Translations under genes and position numbers: made by a program
In this document: positions 3,750 to 12,365 of the stretch, piece by piece
Layout of the letters: each line of letters starts with the position of its first letter
Numbering within the stretch: the first letter of the stretch is position 1
Origin: Siculibacillus lacustris
Lineage (GTDB): Bacteria > Pseudomonadota > Alphaproteobacteria > Rhizobiales > Ancalomicrobiaceae
Direction: 5' to 3'
Assembly: GCF_004328075.1 (NCBI RefSeq)
Contig: NZ_SJFN01000026.1
Location: 787-64,786 of the forward strand
Length of the DNA stretch: 64,000 nucleotides
Notes under the pieces: model-generated
Databases searched by the model: none
What the model was told of the DNA's origin: nothing
Seen by the model: only the letters and a program-made list of their open reading frames with translations

Positions 3750-4955
3750 TCAGGCGCCCGAGGAGACGGTCGCCAGATTTGGGGCTTCGGACGCGCTCGC
3801 CGCCGTAGGCGTCGCCCGCACGGCCGGTCGCGACAGCGCCGCTCCGAGTCCGATGAGCGCGGCGATCCCCACGGCGCAGGTGGCGAGCTGGACGCCGGGA
3901 TCGAATGCCGTCTCGATCATCACGATCTGGCCGGCGACCGCCAGGATCGTGCCGACCGCGAAGACCTCGAGCGAATGGCGCCCCGCCGCGGCCAGCCGGC
4001 GCGCCACCGGCCCGTCGAGCCGGCGGGCGGTCGGCGGCACGGCGCGCAGAAACAGCCAGGCGAGCGCCGCGAAATGGACGAGACGCGCCGGATCGAGGTT
4101 GGTCTTGTCGGCCCCGAATTCCATCGCCACCAGGGGCGCGAGCGCCGGCAGCGTCAGGACGCCCGCCTCGGCGAGCTTGACCGCGGCGGCGAACACCACC
4201 ACGGCAATCGCGAGCGCGTCGACCGCTCTCGCCGCCCGGCCGTGCGGCAAGGCCAGCCCGGCGCTCGCGGCGCGGCCGGCAACCACGCCGAAGGTGAAGA
4301 TCATCTGCCAGGCGAGCGGGTTGAAGAACCACTCTTCGTCACCGGCGGGCAGATCGATCTGGAAATGCGCCGCCGCCCGCCACAGCGCCGCCGACAGGAC
4401 GAGCGCCAGCAGCGGCGACCGGCAGACCAGGACGTGGATCAGCGGATAGGCGGCGAGCAGCACCAGATAGAGCGGCAGGATGTTGAGGTAGTTGGGCTGA
4501 TAGGTCAGCGTCAGCATCGCCACCGCCGCCCCGATCGTGTCGTCGAGCAGGGGATCGACGTCGATCGCATCGGAGTGCGCGGGATCGCCGGTCAGAGCCA
4601 TCGCTCCGGCGACCAGACACACCACCGCCAGGAACACGATCAGGTGCCAGACGTAGATCGTTCCGAGCCGCGCCAGGATCTTGCGGCCGCCGGCCCCCGG
4701 CCCGAGCCGATCGATGGTCCGCCCGAAGCCCCAGGCCGCCGACATCCCCGACAGGAACACGAACAGCTCCGCCGCGTCGCAGAAGCCCCAGGCGTGCGGC
4801 ATCACCGCGGCGACGAGATTGCCGGGCATGTGGTCGATGAAGATCACGATCAGCGCCAGACCGCGCATCACGTCGAGGCGTCGATCGCGGGGGATCGATG
4901 CGGCGGGCTCTCGCCCGATCGCCGCGCCGCCCGCCAGAAATCGCGCCCACGCCAT
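3750..4955 (-). CDS. opgC: OpgC-like membrane acyltransferase
   Basis: A 401-residue multi-pass inner-membrane protein starting MAWARFLAGG. After a basic N-terminus comes RDRRLDVMRGLALIVIFIDH, the typical opening of OpgC/acyltransferase-3 proteins, followed by about ten hydrophobic segments and the WHLIVFL and SLEVFAVG segments usual in the family. OpgC proteins succinylate periplasmic osmoregulated glucans; others acylate different surface glycans. A longer frame continues upstream, but its first 91 residues are Arg/Pro-rich and look non-coding, so the ATG at 4955 is preferred. It lies downstream of gldA on the same strand across 235 bases containing strong hairpins, so it is probably a separate unit. 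The stop faces the hydrolase gene convergently. Confidence 0.78.
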   Translation of the reverse strand: MAWARFLAGGAAIGREPAASIPRDRRLDVMRGLALIVIFIDHMPGNLVAAVMPHAWGFCDAAELFVFLSGMSAAWGFGRTIDRLGPGAGGRKILARLGTIYVWHLIVFLAVVCLVAGAMALTGDPAHSDAIDVDPLLDDTIGAAVAMLTLTYQPNYLNILPLYLVLLAAYPLIHVLVCRSPLLALVLSAALWRAAAHFQIDLPAGDEEWFFNPLAWQMIFTFGVVAGRAASAGLALPHGRAARAVDALAIAVVVFAAAVKLAEAGVLTLPALAPLVAMEFGADKTNLDPARLVHFAALAWLFLRAVPPTARRLDGPVARRLAAAGRHSLEVFAVGTILAVAGQIVMIETAFDPGVQLATCAVGIAALIGLGAALSRPAVRATPTAASASEAPNLATVSSGA

Positions 4956-5080
4956 CGTTCCGTTCCGCCGCCGACCGCCGTCCCCGGAGGGGCCCGGCGT
5001 CGGTCGTCGTCGAACGGGCCCCGGAAGAGACCGCGCGACGGGGCGAAAGGTTCGATCACGAGGTCGTGTGTCGGCGCTTC

Positions 5081-5130
5081 GGCGCGCCGGGCGGCGCGCC
5101 GACCGAGGCCCCGCGGGGCGGCGGGGCCTC
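5081..5130 (-). terminator. Tandem GC hairpins downstream of gldA
   Basis: Two perfect stems lie side by side: 8 bp (5081-5088 with 5093-5100, 4-base loop) and 10 bp (5105-5114 with 5121-5130, 6-base loop). They follow the gldA stop on the minus strand by about 60 bases. There is no T-tract, so this is either a weak intrinsic terminator or an RNA-stabilising structure. Confidence 0.4.
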
Positions 5131-5190
5131 CTCGCGCCGCGGCGCGGACCCGGGGGAACGGTGCGGATGCGCCCCCGGGTGGCCGTTCGA

Positions 5191-6291
5191 TCAGGCCGGA
5201 ACCAGCGCGAACCGCCGGCCATAGGCATCGGCAGCCTTGAGCGCCGCGAAGACCTGGGCCGGCGTGGTGTCCGACGGCACGTTGTGGATCGTCTCGCCGG
5301 CCGCGCAGGCGAGCTCGGCGACCTTCATCAGATCGGCGTCCGACGGCGAGTCGAGGCCGATGTCGGCGAGGGTGATCGGCAGCCCGACCGCGACGCAGAA
5401 GCGATAGACCTCGGTGATCACGGCGTTCGGCCGTCCGGTCAGGAACATCAGCGCCTGGGTCCCGATCGCCACCTTCTCGCCGTGCCAATAGTGATGGGTC
5501 GGCGCCAGCACGGTCAGACCGTTGTGAATGGCGTGTGCGCCCGACAACCCGCCGCTCTCGAAGCCGATGCCCGACAGGAGCGTGTTGGCCTCGATGATCC
5601 GTTCGACAGCCGCGTCGACCAGCCCCTCGGCCGCCTTGGCCTTGGCGGCGACGCCGTCGGCGCGCAGCGTGTCCCAGCACAGCCGGGCGAGCGCATGGAC
5701 GGTCATCGATCCGACCCGTCCGGTCATGTTGGTGGCGCCCGACTTGAAGCAGTCCTCGGCCTCGAACCAGGTGGCGAGCGCGTCGCCCATGCCCGACACC
5801 AGGAAGCGCACCGGCGCCTGGGCGATCACCGCCGAATCGACCAACACCACGTCGGGATTGCGCGGCAGCACCAGATAGCTCTCGAAGGCGCCGTCGGGCG
5901 TGTAGATCACCGACAGGGCCGAGCACGGCGCGTCGGTGGAGGCCAGCGTCGGCGCGATCACCACCGGCAGGCCGCGGTCGTGGGCGACCGCCTTGGCGGT
6001 GTCGAGGGCCTTGCCGCCGCCGATCCCGACGATCACCTGCGCGCCGGTGCGTTTCGCCACCGCCGACAGGCGATCGATCTCGAGACGGCAGCATTCGCGG
6101 CCGAAGATCTCCACGTCGAAGGCGACCTCGGCATTGGCGGCCAGCGCCGCGGCGACGGCGGCATTGGTGTGTGCGGTCGGACTGACGATCGCCAGGGCCC
6201 GTGACCCCAGGCGCGCGGTCTCCGACGCCAGCGTCGCGAAGGCGTCGGCGCCCTGCACGTAGCGGCTCGGAAAGATGGAGGTGCTGATCAT
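5191..6291 (-). CDS. gldA: Glycerol dehydrogenase (iron-containing ADH superfamily, GldA type)
   Basis: NAD-dependent oxidation of glycerol to dihydroxyacetone, or the reverse and related reactions on 1,2-diols. The 366 residues match the family length (about 367). The nucleotide-binding GIGGGKALDTAK is at about 89-100, and the metal ligands align with GldA: Asp170 (in GMGDALATWFEA), His253 (in GAHAIHNGL) and His270 (in HGEKVA). The start at 6291 is chosen because GGGGAAGGG lies just upstream and homologues begin there; an ATG at 6333 would add 14 basic residues. It is divergent from a PduS/PduT-like pair, which suggests a role in diol, triol or aldehyde chemistry with microcompartment-type proteins. 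Confidence 0.88.
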   Translation of the reverse strand: MISTSIFPSRYVQGADAFATLASETARLGSRALAIVSPTAHTNAAVAAALAANAEVAFDVEIFGRECCRLEIDRLSAVAKRTGAQVIVGIGGGKALDTAKAVAHDRGLPVVIAPTLASTDAPCSALSVIYTPDGAFESYLVLPRNPDVVLVDSAVIAQAPVRFLVSGMGDALATWFEAEDCFKSGATNMTGRVGSMTVHALARLCWDTLRADGVAAKAKAAEGLVDAAVERIIEANTLLSGIGFESGGLSGAHAIHNGLTVLAPTHHYWHGEKVAIGTQALMFLTGRPNAVITEVYRFCVAVGLPITLADIGLDSPSDADLMKVAELACAAGETIHNVPSDTTPAQVFAALKAADAYGRRFALVPA

Positions 6292-6664
6292 GACGCCCTT
6301 CCCCGTTGACGCCTGGCGTCGTCCGGCGACCACGCCGAACCCCGGCCGGGGCTCGCGTCGCTGCGCACCAGGCGCCGAACCCTAGGCGCCCTCCCGCCGG
6401 CCCGCCAATGCGCTAAGCGGGCGTAGTTGTTGTACGAACAGGTGGTTCTCGGGGCGGGGTGCCGCGCGGAAAGCCGAATAGTGTAAATCTTCGCGGGTTT
6501 TGAAAATGGCGCGGCCGGGGTCGGTGGACTTATGACTCCAGCGGACGGACGAGCCGCTGCGGAAGGTGCCGCATCCAGCCTCCGCAGATCGCTCCGACGT
6601 CGCGGCAGATCCGCGAATCCGGTCGGCATCGGCGGGCGGACGTCGACCAACGAGCGAGGGAGCC
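6292..6664. promoter_or_regulatory. Divergent control region gldA / pduS-like, with inverted repeat
   Basis: This 373-base gene-free stretch separates gldA from the pduS-like gene. It is locally AT-richer around 6420-6510, consistent with promoters. A short perfect inverted repeat, TGTT at 6428-6431 and AACA at 6437-6440 around a 5-base centre, is a candidate operator, perhaps for the downstream AraC-type response regulator. No confident -35/-10 pair could be assigned. Confidence 0.4.
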
Positions 6665-8002
6665 ATGGACAGGACGGCGTTTCTGGCGGCGGTCGAAGCG
6701 GCCGGCATCGTGGGCGAAGGGGGCGCCGGCTTTCCCTCGCACGTCAAATACGCCGCCACGGCGGACACGGTGATCGCCAACGGCTGCGAATGCGAGCCGC
6801 TGCTGCACACCGACCAGCACCTGTTGCTGCACCACGCCGACGAGATCGTGCGCGGGCTGAGCCTCGTCCAGGCGGCGACCGGCGCGGCGCGCGGCGTCGT
6901 CGCCCTGAAGCGCAAATACACGGAAGCCACCGACATCCTGCGGCGGGCGATCGGCGCGCGGCCGCTGGAGATCGCTCTGCTCGACAACTTCTATCCGGCC
7001 GGCGACGAGCAGATCCTGACCCGCGAAGTGACCGGCCGCTCGGTGCCGCCGCTCGGCCTGCCGCTGCACGTCGGTGTCGTGGTCGCCAACGTCGGCACCC
7101 TGGTCTCGGCGGCGGCCGCCGCCGACGGCGTGCCGCTCACCCACAAGTACCTGACGATCACCGGCGACGTCGCCCGGCCCGGCATCCTGCGGGTTCCGAC
7201 CGGTACGCCCCTCTCCGCCTGCCTCGCCGCGGCCGGCGGTGCGACCATCGCCGATCCGGTCTTTGTGCTCGGCGGACCGATGATGGGCCGGGTGGTCGAC
7301 GAGGCCGCGGCCTTCGCCCGCGAGGTCGTCACCAAGACCTCGGGCGGCCTGATCGTGATCCCGCGCGGCCACCACCTCCACGTCAACGCCACCACGCCGG
7401 CCTCGCACACCCGCGCCCGCGCCGCCGCCGCCTGCATCCAGTGCCGGATGTGCTCCGACCTCTGCCCTCGCCAACTGGTCGGCCAACCCTTCGAGACCCA
7501 CCGGGTGATGCGCGCCTTCGCCCACCACCGCGAGACCGAGGGCGCCGACGGCAAGCTGGCGCTGCTGTGCTGCGACTGCGGCGTCTGCGAGCATTTCGCC
7601 TGTCCCATGGGGCTGTTGCCGCGGCGGATCAATCAGTCGATCAAGACCCGCTTCCGCGCCGAGAAGATCGCCTACGACGGCCCGCGCACCATCGAGGAAA
7701 ACCGCGTCCATTGGCGCGAGTTCCGCAAGGTGCCGGTGCCGCGGCTGGCCTCGAAGATCGGCATCTCCCGCTACCTGGACCTGCCCTGCGACGATCTCGG
7801 CGAGTTGCAGCCGGAGCGGGTGGTGATTCCGCTCGCCCAGCACATCGGCGCGCCGGCTCGCGCCGTGGTCCGCCCCGGCGACGTGGTGCGCCGCGGCGAT
7901 CTGGTCGGGACGATTCCCGACGGGGCCCTCGGGGCGCGGATCCATACGGGCATCGACGGCACGGTCGAGAGCGTGGGTGCCACCGTGGTGGTCGCCCGCT
8001 GA
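6665..8002 (+). CDS. pduS: PduS-like cobalamin reductase / RnfC-type flavin-Fe-S protein
   Basis: A 445-residue protein of the RnfC/PduS family, which passes electrons from NADH through FMN and two [4Fe-4S] clusters; PduS reduces cobalamin inside propanediol-utilisation microcompartments. The order is family-typical: N-terminal GEGGAGFPSHVK (about 18-28), NGCECEP (39-45), a central SLBB-like region (about 160-200), then two ferredoxin motifs with Cys257/260/263/267 and Cys302/305/308/313, and a short C-terminal biotinyl-like segment. The ATG at 6665 is preferred because GAGGGAG lies just before it; the upstream extension looks non-coding. It is followed 55 bases later by a PduT-like shell gene, the same pairing as in pdu operons. 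No B12 enzyme is encoded in the window. Confidence 0.85.
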   Translation: MDRTAFLAAVEAAGIVGEGGAGFPSHVKYAATADTVIANGCECEPLLHTDQHLLLHHADEIVRGLSLVQAATGAARGVVALKRKYTEATDILRRAIGARPLEIALLDNFYPAGDEQILTREVTGRSVPPLGLPLHVGVVVANVGTLVSAAAAADGVPLTHKYLTITGDVARPGILRVPTGTPLSACLAAAGGATIADPVFVLGGPMMGRVVDEAAAFAREVVTKTSGGLIVIPRGHHLHVNATTPASHTRARAAAACIQCRMCSDLCPRQLVGQPFETHRVMRAFAHHRETEGADGKLALLCCDCGVCEHFACPMGLLPRRINQSIKTRFRAEKIAYDGPRTIEENRVHWREFRKVPVPRLASKIGISRYLDLPCDDLGELQPERVVIPLAQHIGAPARAVVRPGDVVRRGDLVGTIPDGALGARIHTGIDGTVESVGATVVVAR

Positions 8003-8057
8003 ACGTCACGTCGGAGTGGGGTCGGCCGACGCCGCCCCGACAGGAAGGAGAGACGCC

Positions 8058-8615
8058 GTGTCAGAGCTCTACGCCGCCGTCGGAATGGTGGAATTCACCA
8101 GCATCGCCGCGGGAATCGACGGCGCCGATCGGATGATCAAGTCGGCGCGTGTGCAGCCGATCTTCTTCAAGACGATCTGCCCCGGCAAGTTCGTCGCCGC
8201 CGTCACCGGCGACGTCGCCTCGGTGACCTCGGCGGTCGCGGCGGCGCGCGAGCGGCACCCCGACACGGTGGTCGACTGGTTCGTCATCGCCAACATCCAC
8301 CCGGAAGTGGTGCAGGGCCTCGCCGGCGTCTGCCCCGCCACCGATCGCAAGGCGCTGGGCATCATCGAGACCTTCTCGGCGATCTCGGTGGTGATGGCCG
8401 CCGATGCGGCGGTCAAGGCGGCCAACGTCCATCTCGTCGACGTGCGCATCGCCCTGGCGCTCGGCGGCAAGGGCTACATCCTGTTGACCGGCGACGTCAC
8501 CGCCTGCGAGGCGGCGGTCGAGGCCGGCGGCGCGGCGGTCGCCCGGCTCGGCCTGCTGGTCGGCAAGATCGTCATCGCCAATCCGTCCGAGGAGATCTTC
8601 GCCCAGCTCGGATGA
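8058..8615 (+). CDS. pduT: PduT-like tandem-BMC-domain shell protein (BMC-T)
   Basis: A 185-residue protein made of two BMC folds in tandem: domain 1 about 5-92 (GMVEFTSIAAGI, KTICPGKF, GDVASV) and domain 2 about 98-182 (ALGIIETFS, GGKGYILLTGDV). Such proteins form trimeric pseudo-hexamers in microcompartment shells. Overall similarity is closest to PduT, whose second domain carries the pore cysteine that binds a [4Fe-4S] cluster. Here the corresponding position (about 111, in ETFSAISVV) appears to be Val, while Cys41 in TICPGK is kept. The GTG start at 8058 has AAGGAG eight bases upstream. It is the only BMC-domain gene seen in the window. Confidence 0.88.
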   Translation: MSELYAAVGMVEFTSIAAGIDGADRMIKSARVQPIFFKTICPGKFVAAVTGDVASVTSAVAAARERHPDTVVDWFVIANIHPEVVQGLAGVCPATDRKALGIIETFSAISVVMAADAAVKAANVHLVDVRIALALGGKGYILLTGDVTACEAAVEAGGAAVARLGLLVGKIVIANPSEEIFAQLG

Positions 8616-8716
8616 TCCGCCCGGCCCGCGGCCTACCGTCGCGCGTCGGACTTCTCGCCACCGTTTCGCCCATTCGGGCGTGCCGGAATCGACCGCAAGA
8701 GACGAGGTGACCCGAA

Positions 8717-9487
8717 ATGCCGGCCCTTCTCGTGGTGGACGACACGCCGATCATCCGCTCGACGATCATCAACGTGGTCGAGAGCAGTGCCCTGGGGTTC
8801 TCCTCGGTCACCGAAGCCCGCAACGGCGCCGAGGCGATCGACTGCGCCCGGCGGTTGCCGCCCGACGTGGTGCTGATGGACATCCGCATGCCCGGCGTCG
8901 ACGGCCTGGAGGCGGCGACGGTGATCTGCGGCGAATGCCCCGACGTCCGCATGGTGTTCCTCACCGCCTATGACGAATTCGCCTATGTCCAGCGGGCGTT
9001 GAAGCTCGGCGCGGTCGATTATCTGTTGAAGCCGATCCGCCCGGCGATCCTCCACGACGTGCTCGCCCGTCTGGCCCGCGACGTCGCGCCCAAGCCCGCC
9101 GCGGCCGCGCCGCCGCCGATCCGCATCGCCGCCCGCACCCACGCCCGCGCCGATCCGATCGAGCGCGCCCAAGCCTACATCCGCCAGAACTTCCGCTCGC
9201 CGTCGATCTCGCTCGCCGAGGTCGCCGAGGCCGCCCATCTCAGCCCGTCCCATCTCGCCCACCGCTTCCGCAAGCAGGTCGGGGTCGGCTACCAGCAATA
9301 TGTCACCGGGTTGCGCATCGAAGCCGCCAAGACCCTGCTCGACACCAGCGATCTGCCGATCTCGACCATCGCCGAGGAGGTCGGCTATCCGAATCTGACC
9401 AATTTCTACCGGCTGTTCCAGCGCGAGGTCGGCCAGACCCCGGCCGCCTGCCGCCGGGCCCTGCACGCCGACCGCAAGACGGTCTGA
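8717..9487 (+). CDS. Response regulator, REC domain plus AraC-type HTH
   Basis: A 256-residue protein. The receiver domain (about 1-115) has the acidic pair Asp8/Asp9, phospho-acceptor Asp55 in LMDIRMPG, Thr83 and Lys105 in LKPI. A Pro/Ala linker (115-145) leads to an AraC/XylS double helix-turn-helix (about 150-250; ISLAEVAEAAHLSPSHLAHRF and ISTIAEEVGYPNLTNFYRLF). The architecture resembles YesN-type regulators. No histidine kinase is encoded nearby, so its partner lies elsewhere. Position 101 bases after the pduT-like gene and a strong terminator directly after it suggest it belongs to the same locus and may regulate it, perhaps at the divergent region before the pduS-like gene. Confidence 0.88.
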   Translation: MPALLVVDDTPIIRSTIINVVESSALGFSSVTEARNGAEAIDCARRLPPDVVLMDIRMPGVDGLEAATVICGECPDVRMVFLTAYDEFAYVQRALKLGAVDYLLKPIRPAILHDVLARLARDVAPKPAAAAPPPIRIAARTHARADPIERAQAYIRQNFRSPSISLAEVAEAAHLSPSHLAHRFRKQVGVGYQQYVTGLRIEAAKTLLDTSDLPISTIAEEVGYPNLTNFYRLFQREVGQTPAACRRALHADRKTV

Positions 9488-9500
9488 CCGAGGTCCTGCT

Positions 9501-9555
9501 CCGGCGTGATTGCCGACCCGAGTCCCTCGGATCGGCAATCACGCCGGATTTTTTT
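9501..9555 (+). terminator. Strong rho-independent terminator
   Basis: A perfect 16-bp stem (9501-9516 with 9532-9547, 15-base loop with its own small CGAG/CTCG pairing) is followed by ATTTTTTT at 9548-9555. It ends the plus-strand pduS-pduT-regulator unit 13 bases after the regulator stop. Confidence 0.92.
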
Positions 9556-9601
9556 CGGGCGGCGTCCGTCGATCGGGCGGGTTGGGCGGATCGGGCGAGG
9601 G

Positions 9602-10957
9602 TCACAGTCCGAGCGCGTAGGCGCCGGCGACCAGCAGCGACGAACAGACGAGCAGGAGCAGCGCGAAGCGCGCGTTCCACGACAACCCGACGACGTGCGA
9701 CGACACGCCCGTGAGCGACCCGGTGATCAGCGACATGGCGCTGATCGGCGACACCGCAATCGCCATCGCCCAACCGAGCGTCAGGGCCAGCGCCAGGGTC
9801 ATCGGGTGGCCGGCGCCGGTGGTGCCGTGGCCGAACAACTGCACCAGCAGCACCACGAAGATCGAATGGGGGATCATCAGCGCCCCGGCCAGCGGCACGA
9901 TCAGCAGGCACAGGCCGATGATCGCCAGATCCGGATAGGTGCCGTTCTGGACCGCGCCCCAGAACGCCTGTTCGCGCACGCAGATCGAGATCGCCGCGCC
10001 GATCACGTTGGCCGAGAGGAAGATCGCGCTCTCGCCGCGCATGTCGGTGAGCCCACGGAACATGCCGGCGAGATGGACGACGAGGGGCTTGGGCTCGGTC
10101 GCCGGTTCGAACATCACCCACACGATCGAGAACAGCGGGATCACCGCCGCCGTGGCGAGAATGAAGCTCATGCCCTGGAACTCGTGCAGCAGGATCGTCG
10201 CCGCCAGCAGCGCCGCGCTCACCGCCAGGATCGCCCATACCGGCTTCGAGGACTGGGGTGCGCCGTCGGCGCTCCGATCCTCCGATCCGTCGTCGGAGCG
10301 GCCGAACACGAAGCAGGTCAGCGCCAGGAGCAGGATCGCCGACAGGAACGACAGCACCAGGAAGCGCACCGGATCGAGCCGATCGATCCCGGTGGTGACG
10401 ATCGCAAAGCCCAGTCCCATCGGCGACCAGATGGTCATCAGCACCGTGCCGCGCATGCCGGCGAGCAGCAACTCCTGGCGCTGGCGCTTCGGCATCCGCG
10501 CCTTGTCGCCCGAGCCGAGCAATTCGCCGATCAGGGCGATGATGCCGACGTTGAACAACAGGCTGAGGAAATGGCTGCCGACGTTGACCGCCGCATAACG
10601 GCCGCGCCGCGGCACCGAGACCAGGAAGCGCGCCGCTCTCTGCGCGATCGCCGAATGGCGCACCGCGTGGCGCAGCACGCCGATGGTCGAGAGCAGCACC
10701 GCGAAGGCGACGCCCTGGATCAGCGCCGCATGGAGTTCGCCGATCCGCCGCGGAAACCACAGCGCCACCGCCGGCCCGAGGACCAGCGCCGCGACCACGA
10801 AGATCCGCGCCATCACCGGCACCGTGCGCCACTGCGCCAGGGTGGCGAGGATCGCCGCGCCGATCGCCACTTGCGTCGCCGCCGGGACATGGGCGGTCTG
10901 GCCGAAGATCAGCAGCAGGCCGGTCGCGAGCACGAGAAGGTTGGTCGATCTTGCCAT
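9602..10957 (-). CDS. Multi-pass inner-membrane protein, probable transporter, family not recognised
   Basis: A 451-residue protein with roughly 11-13 hydrophobic segments and little soluble sequence; one polar loop lies around residues 225-245. Conserved-looking stretches include SLLFNVGIIALIGELLG near the middle of the first half and SPISAMSLITGSL near the C-terminus. A repeated architecture with short glycine-containing hairpins resembles ion-transporter-superfamily carriers, but I cannot name the family. The ATG at 10957 is preferred over an upstream extension that looks non-coding. It lies 124 bases downstream of the AmaA-like oxidase on the same strand, so it may import or export that pathway's substrate. 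Confidence 0.7.
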   Translation of the reverse strand: MARSTNLLVLATGLLLIFGQTAHVPAATQVAIGAAILATLAQWRTVPVMARIFVVAALVLGPAVALWFPRRIGELHAALIQGVAFAVLLSTIGVLRHAVRHSAIAQRAARFLVSVPRRGRYAAVNVGSHFLSLLFNVGIIALIGELLGSGDKARMPKRQRQELLLAGMRGTVLMTIWSPMGLGFAIVTTGIDRLDPVRFLVLSFLSAILLLALTCFVFGRSDDGSEDRSADGAPQSSKPVWAILAVSAALLAATILLHEFQGMSFILATAAVIPLFSIVWVMFEPATEPKPLVVHLAGMFRGLTDMRGESAIFLSANVIGAAISICVREQAFWGAVQNGTYPDLAIIGLCLLIVPLAGALMIPHSIFVVLLVQLFGHGTTGAGHPMTLALALTLGWAMAIAVSPISAMSLITGSLTGVSSHVVGLSWNARFALLLLVCSSLLVAGAYALGL

Positions 10958-11055
10958 GATACCGGATGTGCGAGGAGACGTGCCGCTGCGCTCGGGCCGC
11001 GCCGCCGTCGCGGACGGACCCGCGACGGGAGGATTGCGGCGGGGCCTTCGCCGCC

Positions 11056-11075
11056 CCCGGCCGAGTCCGGCCGGG
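11056..11075 (-). terminator. GC hairpin just after the AmaA-like gene
   Basis: A perfect 8-bp CCCGGCCG/CGGCCGGG stem with a 4-base loop lies six bases past the oxidase stop on the minus strand. There is no T-tract, so read-through into the membrane-protein gene is likely. Confidence 0.3.
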
Positions 11076-11081
11076 CCGGGC

Positions 11082-12365
11082 TCACAATCTGGCATCGATC
11101 GTGTGCACGAGCTGCGCGCCCAGCTCATAGGCGAGCTCCATGGGTCGTCCAAAAGTGGGGGTCTCGGTGGCGGTGATCGGCAGCGGCATCTCGTAGGCGC
11201 CGATCTGTCCGGTGAGGTGGCGGGCGATGGTGCGGCCGAACACCGTGCCCGGCGCGATGCCGCGGCCGTTGTAGCCGGAGAAGCAGATCACATCGTCGGC
11301 GGGCCGATGCAGCCGCGGCAGATTGTCCTTGGTCATGCCGATCAGCCCGTACCAGGCCGATTCGAAGGCAACCCGCCCGAGCTGCGGGAACACCTTGCGC
11401 GCCGCCCGCTCGGCCCAGGCGCGATGCACCGCCATACCGGTGAGCCGCAGCGCCCCGACGCTGCCGAACACCAGCCGGCCGGCGCGGTCGAGGCGGAACG
11501 AGCTCAGCACCTGCTTGGTGTCCCAGCAGCCCTGATGCTCCGGCAGGATGGTGCGCAGCACCTCCGGCGCCAGCGGCGGCGTGGCGAAGTTGAAATAGGG
11601 CAGGTGCACCTGCTCGTCGCGCACCGCCGCCCAAGGTCCCTGGGAATAGGCGTCGGTCGCCACCACGATGCGATCGGCGGTGACCCGCCCACGTTCGGTG
11701 CGCACTTCCCACTGGGTGCGGCGCCGGTCGGCGGCGATCACCGGCGAACCGGTATGAATTCGCGCCCCGGCGGTGATCGCCGCGTGGGCCAGCCCGCGAG
11801 CATAGGCGAGCGGCTGGATGGTGCCGGCGCGGCGGTCGAGCAGCGCCCCGGCATAGGCGGTGGAGCCGACCTTGGCCTCGGCCTCGCGGGCGTCGAGCAG
11901 TTCGACCGGCGCCCCGCGCCGCCGCCACTGCCGCTCGCGCTCGGTGATTTCGACGAGCCCGGCCCGCCCGACCGCGCAGTGCAGCGTCCCGGCGTGCGAC
12001 GCCTCGCAGTCGATGCCCAGCCGCGCCACCAGATCGAAGACGTATTGCGGTGCATTGCCGAGGAGGTCGAGCAGGCGCTCGCCGTAGATCGGACCGAGCG
12101 TCGCCAGGAGGTCTTCCGGCTGCACCCACATCCCGGCGTTGACCAGACCGACGTTGCGGCCCGAGCCGCCGAAGCCGATCTCGACCGCCTCGAGCAGGAC
12201 CACGTCGACCCCCGCCTCGGCGAGATGCAGCGCCGTCGACAGGCCGGTGTAGCCGCCGCCGACCACCACCACGTCCGCCGAGACGTCGCCGATCAGCGCC
12301 GGCGTCACTGGTGCGGGCGGCGCGCTCTGTTCCCAGAGGCCATGGGTTCGAGTGTCGTTCTGCAT
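11082..12365 (-). CDS. amaA: FAD-dependent amine oxidase, AmaA (L-pipecolate oxidase)-like
   Basis: A 427-residue DAO-family flavoenzyme. The dinucleotide-binding GGGYTG is at about 36-41 and the family's GGSGRNVGLVNAGMW follows at about 65-80; LLDRRAGTI, SWYGLIGMT-like and GYNGRGIAPGT segments complete the fold. Both length and these motifs match Pseudomonas AmaA, which oxidises L-pipecolate to piperideine-6-carboxylate; the related PuuB oxidises gamma-glutamylputrescine. The call is helped by the nearby AmaB-type aldehyde dehydrogenase and a LysR gene, the same trio as in Pseudomonas. The start at 12365 has AAAAGGAT upstream. It is divergent from the LysR gene over about 200 bases. Substrate assignment is by analogy. 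Confidence 0.75.
   Translation of the reverse strand: MQNDTRTHGLWEQSAPPAPVTPALIGDVSADVVVVGGGYTGLSTALHLAEAGVDVVLLEAVEIGFGGSGRNVGLVNAGMWVQPEDLLATLGPIYGERLLDLLGNAPQYVFDLVARLGIDCEASHAGTLHCAVGRAGLVEITERERQWRRRGAPVELLDAREAEAKVGSTAYAGALLDRRAGTIQPLAYARGLAHAAITAGARIHTGSPVIAADRRRTQWEVRTERGRVTADRIVVATDAYSQGPWAAVRDEQVHLPYFNFATPPLAPEVLRTILPEHQGCWDTKQVLSSFRLDRAGRLVFGSVGALRLTGMAVHRAWAERAARKVFPQLGRVAFESAWYGLIGMTKDNLPRLHRPADDVICFSGYNGRGIAPGTVFGRTIARHLTGQIGAYEMPLPITATETPTFGRPMELAYELGAQLVHTIDARL

Follow-up and report, generated by a model that had tools for sequence, protein, structure and literature searches.

A PduS–PduT redox pair encoded apart from the PDU-type microcompartment locus of Siculibacillus lacustris, probably as a complementary satellite

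We describe a pduS-like and a pduT-like gene in a 64,000-nucleotide stretch of Siculibacillus lacustris DNA (the window; positions 787-64786 of NZ_SJFN01000026.1, here contig C19 of genome G000, 5.02 Mb in 99 contigs), and we consider it probable that they form a satellite locus that supplies a PduS–PduT redox pair in trans to a propanediol-utilization (PDU)-type bacterial microcompartment (BMC) encoded on another contig, C10. The main locus on C10 exists without pduS and pduT, and the window thus complements it, as a complementary satellite and not as a redundant copy. The reading is carried by the gene content of the two loci, their complementarity, the conserved cysteines of the pair, the paralogy of their regulators and the spaced words shared by their control regions.

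A whole-genome search gave seven BMC-domain matches in G000, of which two are the halves of the window PduT and five lie on C10, together with the sole EutN/CcmL gene of the genome; the C10 shell genes include BMC-H, BMC-T and EutN, and the whole locus has genes of the PduU, PduV, PduA, PduB, PduC, PduD, PduE, PduG, PduL, PduN, PduO and PduP types. On the window contig, PF00936 matched only the two halves of PduT and PF03319 (EutN/CcmL) matched nothing, while the profile for BMC-type aldehyde dehydrogenases gave two matches far below cut-off (42.8 and 22.1 against 403 bits). Diol dehydratase and glycyl-radical enzyme genes were absent from the six genes scanned at 3750-11152, the part of the window over which those profiles were run. 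The PduS profile scored 693 bits on the window gene and otherwise gave only a 31.5-bit match on contig C9, and profile searches of the whole genome found no full-length PduS or PduT on C10 and no second full-length copy of either anywhere in G000. The preliminary description had left two options, a satellite complementing a main locus elsewhere or, if no such locus existed, a redox unit outside any shell; the first is supported by C10, whose shell genes reject the second. The redundant copy that it also foresaw is rejected as well, since the PDU locus on C10 has no pduS or pduT of its own and no second full-length gene was found.

A scan of the longer open reading frame at 6566-8002 found Complex1_51K, SLBB, Fer4_17 and RnfC_N in the PduS-like protein, which is the set of 51-kDa, SLBB, 4Fe-4S dicluster and RnfC_N domains listed for PduS in PMC6325248, and the eight cluster cysteines are invariant in all six aligned PduS–PduT pairs. 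The PduT-like protein matches the BMC family with 142.3 bits in two stretches, that is, as a tandem BMC protein; the poor score that, for the preliminary description, would have refuted the shell assignment was not observed. It also matches the solved PduT-type chains 3nwg (154.6 bits), 3pac (137.7 bits) and 3n79 (131.3 bits). Cysteine C41, within a CPGK motif, is invariant in the same six pairs and aligns with the cysteine of 3pac, which identifies it as the conserved pore cysteine predicted to hold the 4Fe-4S cluster of PduT.

Two further features tie the window to C10. The REC-AraC response regulators of the two loci are 70% identical, and the segments HLSPSHLAHRFRK and PNLTNFYRLFQRE, which we take to contain the AraC recognition helices, are the same in both. 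Furthermore, the control region between gldA and pduS (6292-6664) and that between the alcohol dehydrogenase gene and the pduU-type gene of the main locus (C10:16253-16671) both carry the word GTTGTTGT followed on the same strand by AGTGTAAA, 54 nt from start to start, and the three remaining genomic AGTGTAAA sites have no partner word at that spacing. A score for exact runs on the same diagonal, chosen post hoc, ranks these two regions first among 300 pairs drawn from 25 intergenic regions (24.9, the next being 21.7); it was equalled in none of 200 dinucleotide shuffles, again with a score devised after the words had been seen. An equally rare shared 8-mer occurred in none of 500 shuffles, in a test of the same post hoc kind. 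The pattern derived from the words matches the genome exactly only at the two sites used to build it, and with one mismatch it finds three further sites, against four for a reversed control pattern. The paralogous regulators and the spaced words would fit one co-regulated PDU system made up of C10 and the window, though the scores are post hoc and simpler comparisons of the control regions were negative.

As published work on PduS and PduT points to electron transfer through the shell, we suggest that the window pair could act as a redox gate for the C10 compartment. PduT trimers, with a [4Fe-4S] cluster bound by the cysteines of the pore, would form part of the shell encoded on C10, and PduS would dock on PduT from the inside and oxidize NADH by way of flavin mononucleotide (FMN) and two [4Fe-4S] clusters. 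Its electrons could pass to cobalamin, in concert with the PduO of C10, and so keep the diol dehydratase active, and/or leave the compartment via PduT. Expression would be coupled to the main locus by the paralogous REC-AraC regulator, which may take its signal from the PocR-domain sensor kinase of C10 and may read the shared control sequence. The divergently encoded GldA may be under the same control and act on the substrate or product alcohol, and it could direct glycerol carbon to a DhaK-type kinase encoded on C10.

Nine of 61 genomes near S. lacustris, its own included, gave any match, and full-length PduT was found in G000 only. TIGR02526 matched 41 of 397 genomes sampled evenly from the order, and six have a full-length PduT, namely G000 and five genomes of one genus of another family of the order (genus g75); of 385 genomes sampled from the class, 13 gave a match, and the full-length protein is again confined to G000. 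A plasmid search returned 17 matching records, all below 60% identity. In all five pair-bearing g75 genomes pduS and pduT are adjacent; in four of them the distance to the main shell genes on the same contig is 0.40, 0.46, 0.48 and 1.12 Mb, and in G342 the pair is on a different contig. The five g75 main loci have one common layout of the glycyl-radical type; the glycyl-radical enzyme itself scores above cut-off in G245 and G277, and its activating enzyme and an aldehyde dehydrogenase were identified in G245. The PduC of C10 has no blastp match in the fetched g75 main loci. The arrangement of gldA, pduS, pduT and regulator, for which the preliminary description had looked to synteny within the order, did not recur: it is absent from these five genomes, the only other pair-bearing ones in the sample of 397, where the neighbors differ.

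With G000 in 99 contigs, one might ask whether the assembly has split the pair off from the C10 operon. We give this next to no credence, and reject it: with pduS starting some 7.5 kb into C19 and the shell genes at 16.8-26.6 kb within C10 (93 kb), more than 20 kb would separate them even if the contig ends abut, and in G226 and G304, each assembled as one contig, the pair is 1.12 and 0.40 Mb away from the main locus. A second alternative is that the window pair is left over from a second compartment locus that has been lost and is no longer used, as its optional occurrence in relatives (one of the 61 near genomes) would allow. We regard this as improbable, since both reading frames are intact with their cysteines conserved, and the pair has its own regulator, a strong terminator and control words shared with C10.

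Several observations nevertheless weigh against a satellite that serves C10. The PduT-like protein scores 115.5 bits against TIGR02526, short of the equivalog cut-off of 250.3 bits, which is why we call it PduT-like; the other full-length PduT proteins of the order sample likewise stay below this cut-off (112-117 bits). Both scores that single out the control regions, the rare-word and the same-diagonal score, were devised when the words were known, and two comparisons of the whole regions stay within the range of 20 shuffles each: the best 16- and 22-mers matched at 13 and 16 positions, against 12-14 and 15-17 in the shuffles, and a weighted local match reached 21.5 against 17.3-23.9. The C10 words are moreover oriented toward the alcohol dehydrogenase gene and not toward pduU. 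None of the neighbors tested beside the window regulator is a kinase gene, so that this regulator may share the kinase of C10. Finally, when 14 BMC-bearing genomes were searched together, six had both PduS and PduT and eight had neither (the type of main locus being known among these eight for G184 only), and PduS–PduT is therefore not required by every such compartment. G184, a further member of genus g75, has a glycyl-radical-type main locus, and neither full-length PduS nor full-length PduT was found in it.

Stand-alone pairs are also found beyond the order. In a scan of named genomes, the best 80 of 262 relatives were kept as loci, 37 with and 43 without a further shell gene in the flanking sequence retrieved; contig ends truncate many of these flanks, and the home-made profiles behind the counts miss some genes, as in L130, which seemed stand-alone and yet has a BMC-T on its contig according to PF00936. 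Genome-wide searches with PF00936 covered 22 of the 43 flank-negative loci, all in other phyla, and as these were preselected for shell-free flanks they give no estimate of frequency. PduT is apart from other BMC genes in 20 of the 22, either distant or on another contig, although most are drafts, in which a different contig does not prove distance; the 20 include G417, at 31 kb, and G407, which has a 24-residue BMC fragment beside PduT. G412, with a BMC-T near PduT, is one of the two exceptions. Full 10-kb flanks were available for 13 of the 22, with other BMC genes elsewhere in 12 of the 13, and in Planctomycetales bacterium ZRK34 (L158), whose chromosome is complete, 2.14 Mb separate the pair from the other BMC genes. 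A comparison of neighbors at 25 loci (21 from other groups, three of the five in g75, and that of the window; PduT escaped the gene finder at one of them) showed no third gene fixed beside stand-alone pairs across lineages; the neighbors are lineage-specific.

These genomes also bear on whether PduS and PduT could work as a free redox complex outside any shell, for example by re-oxidizing NADH from GldA. The distance of the pair from shell genes and the divergent gldA next door would fit such a complex. It is very improbable, however, as G000 has a shell locus without exactly pduS and pduT, PduT retains the tandem BMC fold signature and the pore cysteine, and 21 of the 22 preselected genomes also have other BMC genes. 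The draft genome G414 (L141) has pduS–pduT and no other BMC gene was found in it, so that it is either incomplete or holds a pair without a shell. In six other loci, L113, L126, L137, L142, L155 and L160 (Paraglaciecola, Marinobacter, Pseudomonas and a Wohlfahrtiimonas bin), pduS–pduT follows a PduB-like shell gene within about 2.5 kb, and a PduP-like gene lies about 8 kb upstream.

A quick tree of 81 concatenated PduS and PduT rows, which drew a program warning and in which 20 rows are unlabelled (among them L119, with two opposite-strand BMC matches within its flank), places the window pair among shell-linked pairs, mostly of Bacillota, and the g75 pairs together with three others, two stand-alone pairs from planctomycetes and a linked one from Melioribacter. 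The exact place of the window pair is unsure because of its long branch. Monophyly of the window and g75 pairs is rejected (approximately unbiased test, p 0.00076, for a grouping named after the tree had been seen), as is monophyly of the 26 stand-alone pairs that carry a label, and the linked and stand-alone states require at least six changes on the tree. Two separate origins of the stand-alone pair within the order are likely, though not proven.

We put forward, more tentatively and without favoring it, that pduS–pduT is a portable electron gate independent of compartment type, which stands alone in several phyla and arose at least twice independently in the order. If so, the same pair would plug into shells built around a B12-dependent diol dehydratase, as here, and around a glycyl-radical enzyme, as in g75, and in G000 the duplicated response regulator would let the gate be dosed independently of the compartment. 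Unlinked pairs with their own regulator would be natural tests of what PduS and PduT do, as they can be removed or moved while the shell operon is left untouched, and G184 and the five other g75 genomes offer similar main loci without and with the pair. We point out that counts of loci lacking PduS and PduT can miss satellites when made from main loci alone.

The remaining assignments of the preliminary description for this unit, a PduS-type and a PduT-type gene with a REC-AraC regulator and a divergent gldA, agree with the profile and domain searches (Table 1), and the terminator said to close the unit is a hairpin (about 9500-9548; z -7.12, with none of 200 shuffles equally stable) that leads into a run of T. 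A sigma-70 scan found no promoter-like site. Convergent to the terminator is a membrane-protein-like open reading frame at 9602-11152(-), without a Pfam or NCBIfam match as called, whose start may be wrong.

Table 1. Features of the window and of the main locus on contig C10, with the evidence for each (scores in bits against family cut-offs).
Feature	Position	Strand	Evidence or remark
gldA-type iron-containing alcohol dehydrogenase, glycerol dehydrogenase subfamily	5191..6291	-	NF006941 match; open reading frame 5191-6333(-), likely start 6291; divergent to pduS
gldA/pduS intergenic control region	6292..6664	.	rare words in common with the C10 adh/pduU intergenic region
GTTGTTGT	6426..6433	+	counterpart at C10:16587-16594(-)
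AGTGTAAA	6480..6487	+	5 genome copies, one in each of the two control regions
pduS-like: FMN/NADH domain, SLBB, two 4Fe-4S tetracysteine motifs, RnfC_N	6665..8002	+	domain profiles, alignment; ATG start at 6665
pduT-like tandem BMC shell protein, pore cysteine C41	8058..8615	+	BMC profile, solved-chain matches; GTG start
REC-AraC response regulator, paralogous to that of C10	8717..9487	+	domain scan; 174/249 residues identical
Intrinsic terminator closing the unit	9500..9556	+	fold against shuffles
C10 locus, span	C10:16672-29065		gene calls
C10 gene 1, EutS/PduU type			over cut-off
C10 gene 2, EutP/PduV type			under cut-off
C10 gene 3, BMC-H			
C10 gene 4, PduB			over cut-off
C10 gene 5, PduC			967.2, cut-off 788
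C10 gene 6, PduD type			over cut-off
C10 gene 7, PduE type			over a subfamily cut-off
C10 gene 8, PduG			893.2, cut-off 400
C10 gene 9, in the place of PduH			no family match
C10 gene 10, BMC-H with long tail			
C10 gene 11, PduL type			196.2, under cut-off 209
C10 gene 12			weak flavoprotein-like match
C10 gene 13, EutN			
C10 gene 14, PduO fused to a GlcG-like part			PduO over cut-off
C10 gene 15, PduP			592.9, cut-off 403

GldA scores 488.7 bits against NF006941 (cut-off 336) and stays below the cut-offs of the propanediol/glycerol dehydrogenase and glycolaldehyde reductase equivalogs; as family scores do not decide, its substrate may be glycerol, propanediol or an aldehyde. A search of C10 for an iron-type alcohol dehydrogenase of the PduQ kind found none, and the alcohol dehydrogenase divergent to the pduU-type gene is of the zinc type. 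The pair could instead serve a glycerol dissimilation linked to GldA, with the C10 dehydratase acting on glycerol and not on 1,2-propanediol. A DhaK-type dihydroxyacetone kinase gene on C10 (C10:5822-6814; 460.1 bits, cut-off 406), the matches of the dehydratase to mixed propanediol/glycerol families and the control region common to gldA and pduS would agree with this. We think it unlikely, though well worth keeping in mind, and it is compatible with the satellite reading, the family scores being unable to separate the two diols.

Beyond pduP, C10 carries a transporter-like gene without a family match, a PocR-domain protein with a kinase-like end and the REC-AraC regulator. The transporter-like gene (C10:29288-30199), for which no NCBIfam match was obtained either, has relatives beside the main loci of g75 and G184 (L077:1838-2779; 61-65% identical), and is possibly a carrier of substrate that loci of the PDU and the glycyl-radical type share. 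The PocR-domain kinase-like protein (C10:31433-32707) has relatives of about 35% identity beside the five g75 main loci (L077:17357-18766). Common to the PDU locus of G000 and the g75 glycyl-radical locus is also a BMC-H with a long acidic, Pro/Ala-rich tail ending in a basic GRGRR-type stretch (L010:3969-4784, that is C10:23968-24786, and L077:9241-9855).

The best-characterized counterpart of the pair is that of the Citrobacter freundii PDU system, where PduS is described as carrying FMN and two [4Fe-4S] clusters, as being reduced by NADH, as having corrin reductase activity and as co-purifying with PduT, and where passage of electrons out of the compartment is proposed (PMC2982820). The window pair shares the domains, the order of S before T, the pore cysteine and the tetracysteine motifs with it, and differs in being unlinked to a shell operon, in having its own regulator and in the score of PduT below the TIGR02526 cut-off. 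By analogy with Citrobacter, the only system for which they are known (PMC2982820), an FMN/NADH activity of the window PduS and its binding to PduT may be expected. PDU1C main loci without PduS are described in PMC4207490 and resemble C10 in this respect, but G000 supplies PduS elsewhere. PduS and PduT of glycyl-radical compartments, which have no B12 enzyme and in which the role of the two proteins is called open in PMC6325248, are the same pair with a compartment of other chemistry; the five g75 pairs differ in being 0.40-1.12 Mb or another contig away from the main locus.

Satellite loci are defined in PMC4207490 and PMC8217296, and the window resembles them in having too few shell genes and in lying away from the main locus of the genome. 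By the terms of PMC4207490, its shell complement is insufficient (one tandem BMC gene and no EutN on the contig) and its shell genes are trivially contiguous, there being a single one; an adjacent BMC-associated gene is present, since pduS adjoins pduT, which makes the locus satellite-like in the terms of that paper. Satellites in PMC8217296 may hold shell proteins plus enzymes, and the window differs from those in carrying a redox pair and not shell proteins only or an enzyme module of the ethanolamine-utilization (EUT) type. The main text of PMC8217296 mentions neither PduS nor PduT, and in the text of PMC4207490 we found no description of a stand-alone PduS–PduT satellite, though the supplementary tables of both may list such loci. 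In conclusion, we file the locus in the window as a new variety of satellite locus: it encodes a redox pair together with a paralogous regulator of its own, and relatives of the pair stand alone beside a compartment of the glycyl-radical type.

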